Assembly: GCF_945859825.1 (NCBI RefSeq)
Contig: NZ_CAMAPC010000002.1
Location: forward strand, 310,001 to 374,000
Source of the DNA: Pseudoalteromonas holothuriae
GTDB taxonomy: Bacteria; Pseudomonadota; Gammaproteobacteria; Enterobacterales; Alteromonadaceae
DNA: 64,000 nucleotides
Direction of reading: 5' to 3'
Part shown: piece after piece, positions 31,523 through 63,072 of the stretch
Layout: every line of letters begins with the position of its first letter
How positions within the stretch are numbered: position 1 is the stretch's first letter
Position numbers and translations under genes: made by a program
The notes under the pieces: model-generated
What the model saw: the letters and a program-made list of their open reading frames with translations, nothing else
Database searches by the model: none
Told to the model about the DNA's origin: nothing

Positions 31523-31664
31523 TTTATAATTCATATTGTTACTATCACTTCTTGCATTTTTAAACTGCCTCTATATAAATACAAAAAGTAAATTTACGCT
31601 GACAATTTAAAAATTCTATGCAATATTAGAATTTTTCATTGTCGAGCAAAATTGGCAAAAAATT

Positions 31665-62002: not shown

Positions 62003-62018
62003 CCAATATCTAGGCTTT
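61996..62018 (+). terminator. Hairpin overlapping the ruvB stop
   Basis: AGCCTAG-CCAATAT-CTAGGCT-TT; the stop codon is inside the left arm. T-rich sequence follows but with interruptions, so strength is moderate. Confidence 0.6.
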
Positions 62019-62199
62019 AGACTCCGTTCTTTATTTTTTGAATAATCATTGTGCCTGTACTTTTATTAAAGCATTGATCATTTTATCGAGTTAACTGCGT
62101 TAAAAATAGTTTATGCAGAATAATTTCATACCTAAATCTCTGTCAGGTTATTAAGCCATTTACCTGTCGTAATGTCAGAACATTTATTTCATGTAATTA

Positions 62200-62355
62200 G
62201 GGGCTGTTGATCTTTGCTGTGTGTTTTTGCAGCAGTCATTCGGGTATTTTGGCAAGGCAGAACCTGCGTCGCATAGTTATTCTATGTAAGTCAGGTGATA
62301 ACGTAGAAGTTGAGTGTTACTCGCTTTCAGTGAGTGTTAAGGCTAAGCGTATAGA
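62200..62355 (+). mobile_element. Fragment related to the MITE at 22391
   Basis: GGGGCTGTTGATCTTTGCTG, preceded by TA, aligns with the left end at 22393, and the two share ATAGTTATTYTATGTAAGT about 75-85 bases in. No matching right end (complement of the left terminus) was found before the neighbouring terminator, so this copy is truncated. The right limit is approximate. Confidence 0.55.
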
Positions 62356-62377
62356 CTTGATCACGGTAATTTTAGGC

Positions 62378-62404
62378 AAAAAAAAGCCCGCTAAAAAAGC
62401 GGGC
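62378..62404 (-). terminator. Intrinsic terminator of the candidate small RNA
   Basis: Minus strand: GCCCGC-TTTTTTA-GCGGGC followed by eight T. On the plus strand no T-run follows, so it works only in the minus direction. Confidence 0.88.
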
Positions 62405-62552
62405 AAAACAACAAGTTGAAGGAAGTAATCCAGGGAGTTGATAAATGGGCTTAGGTTTTATCCTTTGCGCATCTACCAAAAGTAATACGAAAAATCAGAA
62501 ATCATATTACTAATAACTGTGCTTTGCATTGCTCATGCTGTTTGCTCAGTAC
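62378..62552 (-). ncRNA. Candidate small RNA, about 175 nt
   Basis: A complete transcription unit on the minus strand: promoter TTGATC-N17-TAATAT (62588-62560), expected start near 62552, and a strong intrinsic terminator (GCCCGC-TTTTTTA-GCGGGC-TTTTTTTT). Internal structure includes a 9-bp stem AGTAATATG/CGTATTACT around a U-rich loop (about 62475-62505) and a GATAAA/TTTATC stem. Only tiny reading frames (8 and 10 codons) without ribosome sites are inside. It does not resemble 6S RNA, Spot 42, GcvB, CsrB or tmRNA as I know them. Confidence 0.6.
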
Positions 62553-62559
62553 AGGGTGT

Positions 62560-62588
62560 ATATTAAAGTGGATTTTAAATTTGATCAA
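62560..62588 (-). promoter_or_regulatory. Sigma-70 promoter of the candidate small RNA
   Basis: Minus strand: -35 TTGATC (62588-62583), 17-base spacer, -10 TAATAT (62565-62560). Confidence 0.65.
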
Positions 62589-62746
62589 ACTAGAAAAATT
62601 TAACTTTCAAATAAAAAAAACTAATACCAAAGGTGTTTGCGTGATTTTATTTTTTGCTAAATCAAGTGTTATAAATTGTTATGACATTGTTTTAATTGAG
62701 TTTTTATTTAAAGCTTATTTTCTGTAATTATTAGTTTATTTGTTGT

Positions 62747-62765
62747 TAATTGGTATTACCAATTA
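62747..62765. promoter_or_regulatory. PdhR-type (GntR family) operator
   Basis: TAATTGGT-ATT-ACCAATTA is a perfect 8-bp inverted repeat matching the PdhR/LldR-type operator ATTGGTNNNACCAAT. It lies about 310 bases before tolQ and about 160 bases upstream of the minus-strand small-RNA promoter. Confidence 0.55.
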
Positions 62766-63072
62766 GTATTTGAGGGTTTATTCGTGATTTTTGCATAAAG
62801 ACTATGATTTATGCAGTTACTAGTAATAAATAAGCACTTATAATTGGCTTTAAAATAAGGATACTAATCCTTTTGGATTAAAATGATAGGGTGATTTCAG
62901 TGGGAGTTATGTTTTTACGCACTTTGTCGTCAAATAGCTGTAATTCATGGTAATGAGATTGTAAGCGCGGGCATGTGTGAGTAAACTAACTGAACCTTTA
63001 TAGTCGCTTATAGTCAATTGAGTGAAGTTGCAGGTAAAATAGCCAAAAAACAATCGTTAGGAGTATAATTAA

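Follow-up and report, generated by a model that had tools for sequence, protein, structure and literature searches.

A conserved small RNA gene with a predicted GcvA-type promoter in Pseudoalteromonas and related bacteria

Introduction

GcvB is regarded as a master small RNA (sRNA) of amino-acid metabolism, and acts on genes of amino-acid uptake and synthesis through targets that are specific to species (PMC9409037). The genes gcvB and gcvA are divergent, and GcvB was found to be activated by GcvA and repressed by GcvR in the species investigated; homologues have been sought beside gcvA (PMC1557403). When glycine is in excess, GcvA of E. coli activates gcvTHP as well as gcvB (PMC3879156). Intergenic sRNAs are also described from bacteria related to the one studied here: Pf1-Pf3 of P. 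fuliginea and Aln1a-c of Alteromonas macleodii Te101, which are CsrB analogues. Lists of sRNAs exist for P. fuliginea (PMC11882849, PMC9927453), the primary transcriptome of A. macleodii Te101 holds 127 chromosomal sRNAs (PMC5864184), and a kingdom-wide prediction of 2008 gave widely conserved anonymous sRNA candidates (PMC2527527); any of these sets may include the RNA described below.

Here, we analyse a locus between ruvB and tolQ of Pseudoalteromonas holothuriae, within a window of 64 kb (the whole stretch of DNA analysed, 64,000 nucleotides). A first-pass annotation had marked it as a probable undescribed, trans-acting sRNA on the minus strand. We find an sRNA gene under what sequence comparison identifies as a GcvA-type promoter, and by the usual marks the RNA is not GcvB. 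The word undescribed holds in that the RNA has no Rfam family and we found no published description naming it; it may nonetheless stand as an anonymous entry in the supplementary sRNA lists of two transcriptome studies.

Promoter, terminator and fold

The ruvB-tolQ spacer is 1,070 nt long, from the end of ruvB (62002) to the start of tolQ (63073), and the following features lie on its minus strand:

62378..62552, minus: sRNA gene of about 175 nt, from promoter and terminator positions, fold and conservation; the start near 62552 is placed from the −10 box
62378..62404, minus: Rho-independent terminator with a 7-bp G+C-rich stem and U8, from a terminator scan
62405..62439, minus: unpaired conserved segment AACUCCCUGGAUUACUUCCUUCAACUUGUUGUUUU, from an alignment of 22 species
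62438..62479, minus: second hairpin, from separate minimum free energy (MFE) folds of each version and the alignment
62481..62511, minus: internal hairpin, 10 bp in the P. holothuriae sequence, from the MFE fold and covariation
62560..62565, minus: −10 box TAATAT, from the sequence; same position in relatives
62583..62600, minus: conserved element AATTTTTCTAGTTTGATC, its 3′ end being the −35 TTGATC; kept across the genus
62611..62625, minus: predicted GcvA operator ATTAGTTTTTTTTAT (the box), the top matrix match

The promoter read by the first-pass annotation is present, with TTGATC at 62588-62583 and TAATAT at 62565-62560 separated by a 17-nt spacer. It matches 8 of 12 consensus positions, which is below the threshold of 9 in our promoter scan and hence left it unlisted; so weak a core promoter is expected where an activator is needed. 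The conserved element that ends in the −35 box recurs as AATTTTTCTCGGTTGA at another genomic place in family f15, and is a possible second LysR-type contact site. The terminator, likewise confirmed, consists of a stem-loop (62404-62386) followed by eight T (62385-62378). Alone it is not unusual, because shuffled sequence gives 1.6 such sites per 2 kb and we count 2. The spacer holds two minus-strand reading frames of at least 30 amino acids, of 35 and 48 amino acids. Both look like chance frames. Promoter and terminator frame a structured RNA that is conserved across the genus, and at the level of genomics the proposed self-contained transcription unit stands.

The whole RNA has an MFE of −48.9 kcal/mol, compared with −32.5 ± 3.7 in 200 shuffles (z = −4.4). 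The internal hairpin had been described as a 9-bp stem with a U-rich loop suited to Hfq. In the MFE fold the stem has 10 bp and closes a loop of 11 nt, whose core CUGA is invariant in 22 species, but the best conserved unpaired part of the RNA is the segment before the terminator and not this loop. The hairpin shows compensatory change, as both sides differ in three of its eight consensus pairs. When all pairs of the consensus structure are considered in an alignment of 22 Pseudoalteromonas sequences, 99.3% of cells pair (34-49% in slid controls), and 22 cells have both sides changed (5.6 ± 3.1 in shuffles). Two other measures are less striking: four pairs show a double change (2.3 ± 0.8 in shuffles, 34 of 500 reaching this number), and further pair types number 8 against 8.9 in shuffles. 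The majority of pairs never vary. The apex of the second hairpin, GGAUAAAACC, is invariant in the 22 sequences, while its outer stem varies in sequence and pairs in 16 of 16 distinct versions, folded separately and counted without a control. In the terminator stem, the innermost pair is swapped between A-U and U-A among relatives.

Just before the terminator, 27 consecutive residues, from GGAUUAC to UUGUUGUUUU, are invariant in the 22 Pseudoalteromonas species. Segment and terminator together also show the highest conservation across 29 diverse loci. When genera are compared, it is mainly the 3′ domain that persists, the 5′ part being exchanged. The segment is the probable target-pairing region.

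Conservation and distribution

A 231-nt query matches in all 99 genomes of the genus, P. holothuriae included, many of these matches covering only the 3′ part (query 165-231). At E ≤ 0.001 it matches in 117 of 196 genomes and 42 of 52 genera of the family, where some weak matches, such as L052, are of the terminator only. By tblastn, ruvB was found in 50 and tolQ in 53 of the 56 loci first fetched. In nine close relatives, identity to the P. holothuriae sequence is 0.87 in the RNA body and 0.83 in promoter plus box, while the flank towards ruvB has 0.18 and that towards tolQ 0.68; gaps were scored as mismatches and the P. holothuriae spacer is 107-279 nt longer than theirs, and the contrast is sharp on the ruvB side only. 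The check for neutral divergence gave no refutation. It is this conservation, in 99 of 99 genus genomes and in the identity of the body, that decisively supports a real conserved gene. The sequence comparisons give good support to a conserved sRNA gene that is self-contained and has no Rfam family.

The same counts bear on whether the RNA could be a CsrA-titrating sponge like Pf1-Pf3, which are also intergenic sRNAs of Pseudoalteromonas (PMC11882849). Those RNAs carry 25, 21 and 9 GGA motifs and are present in 37.5, 45.1 and 69.9% of the genomes of the genus (PMC11882849), whereas the P. holothuriae RNA has 2 GGA motifs and its gene is in 99 of 99. With motif content and distribution both so different, a sponge is extremely improbable.

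We searched named genomes for exact matches to a pattern of the 3′ segment and obtained 75 stretches. By these sequence matches, the segment occurs in Pseudoalteromonas, Alteromonas, Rheinheimera, Arsukibacterium and Alkalimonas, as well as in Aestuariibacter, Lacimicrobium, Bowmanella, Aliiglaciecola, Planctobacterium and two further records. From 29 family loci we also built a 3′-domain covariance model (R1), which we ran on 295 genomes of the order, whose families, like the genera of the Alteromonadaceae, are referred to by number (f5, f6, f8 and so on; g23, g24). In the window it scores the sRNA at 83.8 bits (E = 2e-14), the model being built partly from this very sequence. The 24 own-family genomes listed all give a match at E ≤ 0.1, with 23 reaching E ≤ 0.001, and no own-family genome is among the 20 listed of the 188 genomes without a match. 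Eleven loci that were not in the training set (L177, L179, L181-L187, L190, L191) all lie near ruvB and tolQ; the genera of L181 and L182 are represented in R1, though these loci were not used.

Outside the family, R1 matches at E ≤ 0.001 in five f15 genomes, five f20 genomes, one f6 genome and one f25 genome, the last discarded as it lies at a gene end and has no box. The f20 copies are between ruvB and tolQ (L175, L232-L234) or next to a ybgC-like gene (L189). Around the f15 copies, ruvB and tolQ are both absent to a distance of 1.5 kb. In the three f15 loci read, with genes named by eye, L174 and L180 lie between tamB-like and prolyl-oligopeptidase-like genes, and L173 is flanked by a prolyl-oligopeptidase-like gene and a GGDEF-like gene. 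In f6, copies with a box are L218, which adjoins tolQ, L221 and L216; six other fetched f6 matches (L217, L219, L220, L222-L224) have none. Weak matches fetched from f21, f9 and f18 (L225-L231, L235) were also all without a box, and we took them as chance terminators.

In total, 70 of 82 candidate loci are near tolQ. Two of the 82 are doubtful, as L052 matches by its terminator alone and L188 is a model match that lies at the end of a gene and lacks a box; L182 is a shortened copy. This proximity, together with the conservation of the tolQ side (one of its windows reaching 0.92), could indicate that the element is the regulatory region of ybgC-tolQ and the minus-strand unit a by-product. That is very unlikely, given that f15 has the whole unit, box included, elsewhere, and that no part of the spacer is as well conserved as the RNA body, which also covaries. 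The box might serve the ybgC-tolQ operon as well, since it also lies upstream of it.

Two further observations concern neighbouring DNA. The spacer of P. holothuriae (62003-63072) lacks the ybgC-like gene, named by eye, that lies between sRNA and tolQ in L192, L195 and L200; in the Alteromonas-type loci read, this gene takes the place of a highly conserved stretch upstream of tolQ (62903-63002, identity 0.78 and 0.92 in two 50-nt windows, nine relatives), which may be a leader, a promoter or some other element. Also upstream of tolQ, a 17-nt palindrome, AATTGGTATTACCAATT, with one unpaired centre base (62748-62764), resembles an operator of the PdhR/FadR family, and a 50-nt window spanning part of it (62753-62802) has 0.78 identity in the nine relatives. 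In addition, five f6 genomes (L217, L219, L222, L223, L224) share a similar-looking element before a terminator, with CCGCT...GCGGTA, a CTTGA..ATGT stretch and no GcvA box, which is possibly a different sRNA.

A predicted GcvA operator

The box upstream of the promoter points to a probable regulator, GcvA, that is absent from the first-pass annotation; on sequence grounds, GcvA-type control is a new element beyond the promoter and terminator seen earlier. We derived an operator matrix from 22 gcvB boxes (13 distinct), taken from gcvB promoters of other families and including no sRNA site. Among the 127,972 positions of the two strands of the window, 62611-62625 scores highest with this matrix, at 18.25 bits. 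A simulated window holds on average 0.05 sites of such a score, and in simulated spacer their rate is about 1e-6 per position. From the box start to the −10 box is 60 nt, as in gcvB, where the distance is 60 or 61 nt in all 22 promoters used of 28 loci examined. The six gcvB loci left out of the matrix, all from f8, have no box plus −10 at that distance in the stretch examined; one of them, L059, nonetheless has a perfect palindrome.

Nearly all sRNA promoters carry DNA resembling ATTAG-N5-(C/T)TAAT about 60 nt before the −10 box, with the A/T tract in either orientation. Counting one row per genome, a box scoring at least 12 lies upstream of 76 of the 82 candidate loci, compared with 0.46% of 1,953 control segments, the threshold having been chosen after the scores were seen and the controls being outer, mostly coding parts of the same loci. 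The spacing to −10 is 59-61 nt in 71 of the 76. All five f15 loci carry the box, at 60 nt, despite their different neighbours. Among the six loci below threshold, L190 has a box (16.4, spacing 59) outside the stretch scored, and L049 and L050 have weaker palindromes. In P. holothuriae itself, the palindrome is degenerate, with 8 of 10 half-site positions. A 19-mer, ATTAGTTTTTTTTATCTGA, is identical in loci matching the Rfam GcvB family in f18 (L057, L058) and f21 (L066, L069, L071, L072), and is also found in several Pseudoalteromonas sRNA promoters, for example L011-L015 and L018.

The second-best matrix site of the window (31625-31639, 17.45 bits) is 73 nt upstream of an open reading frame that by eye resembles an N-acetylglucosamine-type kinase and is followed by a nagA-like gene. 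This operon looks unrelated, and the neighbourhood read shows no sign of a glycine link.

Sites of the form T-N11-A are common to LysR-type proteins. The box could thus belong to another regulator of this type with the same motif, in which case the RNA would answer to something other than glycine; further LysR genes are likely, the GcvA query having given 32 first-look candidates in the P. holothuriae genome. The positions of the strict palindrome ATTAGWWWWWCTAAT, which we scanned for in six family genomes (five g24, which are Alteromonas-type, and one g23), argue for GcvA. It occurs once or twice in each genome. It is at the sRNA in four of the six (L192, L195, L200, L201) and upstream of gcvA in five, that is, in all five g24 genomes, where every strict palindrome outside the sRNA promoter is upstream of gcvA. 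There, it lies 38-42 nt before the gcvA start codon in four (L193, L194, L198, L199) and about 400 nt before it in one (L196). In the g23 genome, the second palindrome is elsewhere (L197) and not at gcvA. Our argument rests on these positions, because the counts alone prove nothing (10 sites over the six genomes against 7 for the reversed control, which has 0 to 3 per genome). The LysR gene downstream of the palindrome is GcvA by NCBIfam NF008352.0, at 446.6 and 449.3 bits with a cut-off of 288. Furthermore, a single gcvA was found at E ≤ 1e-90 in each of 14 genomes, and the gcvB promoters of other families contain the same site. A different LysR-type regulator is, on this evidence, unlikely.

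There are also box-like sites, matching at 8-9 of 10 half-site positions, at a distance of 31-35 nt upstream of gcvA in three of eight Pseudoalteromonas genomes, two of two f15 genomes and one of one f20 genome. None was found near the gcvA start in P. holothuriae and the four other Pseudoalteromonas genomes among the eight read. An upstream palindrome (L193, L194, L196, L198, L199) or box-like site (L207, L208, L210, L211, L213, L214) suggests that gcvA is autoregulated in the genomes concerned. The gcvA gene of P. holothuriae is on contig C1 and the sRNA on C2, so the two are not adjacent.

Relation to GcvB

No Rfam family is found in the window at its gathering threshold. The sub-threshold matches include anti-hemB (RF02837, 29.1 bits, cut-off 49.5), mmgR (RF00519, 25.8, cut-off 41) and GcvB (RF00022, 24.5, cut-off 42), among others. 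These rest largely on the terminator and a C/U-rich stretch. The likeness to anti-hemB and mmgR, for instance, is a CUCCCU segment plus terminator, such as a generic C/U-rich sRNA 3′ end would have.

The sRNA resembles GcvB in several respects: the same operator sequence, the 60-nt spacing to −10, a similar length, exposed pairing segments and a Rho-independent terminator. By the usual marks, however, we reject membership in GcvB. The promoter feature of GcvB, a GcvA operator at fixed spacing, is found at the sRNA by sequence and is common to both, but the RF00022 score is below threshold, the R1 core of GcvB, AUGUUGUGUUUGCA, which is in most RF00022 loci examined, is absent from the P. holothuriae RNA (nearest, CUUGUUGUUUU), and the gene is not beside gcvA. 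GcvB is divergent from gcvA, whereas the sRNA is between ruvB and tolQ, or elsewhere in f15. RF00022 exceeds its cut-off in 0 of 147 genomes of the Alteromonadaceae and in 25 of 119 genomes of the order (families f5, f8, f9, f10, f12, f18 and f21). Of the 30 RF00022 loci fetched, 28 adjoin gcvA and none adjoins ruvB or tolQ.

Two accounts of this pattern can be weighed. In one, an unrelated RNA does the job of GcvB in Alteromonadaceae and three further families, the GcvA operator-promoter having been kept or captured while RNA body and site were exchanged. We regard this as plausible, at slightly less than even odds. If true, an entire sRNA regulon was exchanged while the switch above it stayed conserved. 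In the other, which is possible with the odds leaning against it, the sRNA is a GcvB orthologue that left its place at gcvA and whose sequence diverged until it could no longer be recognized. Besides the shared operator and spacing and the sub-threshold RF00022 score, divergence would be consistent with the mutual exclusion of the two RNAs by family in our samples and with a 28.8-bit RF00022 match overlapped by the sRNA copy of G124. Moreover, R1, which includes the terminator, gave 17 matches, of which 16 fall on the 3′ end of GcvB (best E = 0.0034).

Against divergence are the missing AUGUUGUGUUUGCA core and the location of the RF00022 loci. A model of the 3′ domain without the terminator (R2) also finds nothing in GcvB RNAs, with 12 weak matches elsewhere, yet at E < 0.01 it finds 8 of 19 distant copies of the sRNA: five of five in f15, one of three in f6, none of five in f20 and two of six in the own family. 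As R2 thus misses 11 of 19 distant copies of the same sRNA, its silence on GcvB says little, and that the sRNA body is not alignable to GcvB without the terminator is a statement about this weak model. Because R1 matches with the terminator and R2 is insensitive, we claim neither homology nor its absence for the two RNA bodies.

Separately, the G134 genome has three neighbouring sub-threshold RF00022 matches (31-38 bits, G134:C6:1589707-1590338) about 8 kb from its sRNA copy. They may be repeats or something else.

Mode of action and targets

Our preferred reading, at a probability of roughly 0.8, is that the locus encodes a GcvA-activated, trans-acting sRNA of the Hfq type that stands in for GcvB. 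The gene, its conservation, structure, operator and spacing, and the link to gcvA were established by computation. GcvA would bind the operator of the ATTAG-N5-CTAAT type, which starts 60 nt before the −10 box as at gcvB, and would activate the weak sigma-70 promoter. The RNA is predicted to fold into variable hairpins and to expose the near-invariant segment UCCCUGGAUUACUUCCUUCAACUUGUUGUUUU before its U8 terminator, a layout typical of Hfq sRNAs, and this segment probably pairs with mRNA leaders. The sRNA would be made when glycine signals plenty and, with Hfq, would silence mRNAs through the invariant segment. In this way it would replace GcvB in Alteromonadaceae and three further families, where GcvB falls below the Rfam threshold in the samples searched.

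The sequence marks of Hfq-dependent sRNAs are present: a Rho-independent terminator, a long U tail, an exposed pairing segment and an hfq gene in the P. holothuriae genome. The invariant unpaired 3′ segment and U-rich terminator fit the earlier suggestion of a trans-acting sRNA. We infer transcription, binding of GcvA and of Hfq, and a regulon of amino-acid or peptide uptake or synthesis, as for GcvB.

Target searches in 11 Pseudoalteromonas genomes gave 73 matches for ACAACAAG + GGA + ATG (55 in the reversed control) and 32 for GTTGAAGGA + ATG (42 in the control). No conserved target was found among these searches and we propose none. Two candidates were rejected. The leader of a DcaP-type porin matched in three genomes (G007, G008, G010) and kept the site in one more (G020, L296); the site is absent from ten other genes with a readable start, L300 being at a contig end and L308 giving no start. 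A second porin leader matched in G007, G008 and G010 only. As an observation in its own right, ACAACAAG precedes the Shine-Dalgarno sequence in the leaders of DcaP-type porins (L237, L256, L296) and of a Porin_4 porin (L248) in a few close Pseudoalteromonas, where it is complementary to CUUGUUGU of the sRNA; it is not kept in the other species read.

Conclusions

A GcvA-driven sRNA located away from gcvA would explain the seeming absence of GcvB in a large marine group, and would give that group a ready-to-test regulator of amino acids and peptides. It would also be a clear case of replacement, or of extreme divergence, under a conserved promoter. This suggests that missing sRNAs can be found by searching for operators and not for the RNA sequence.
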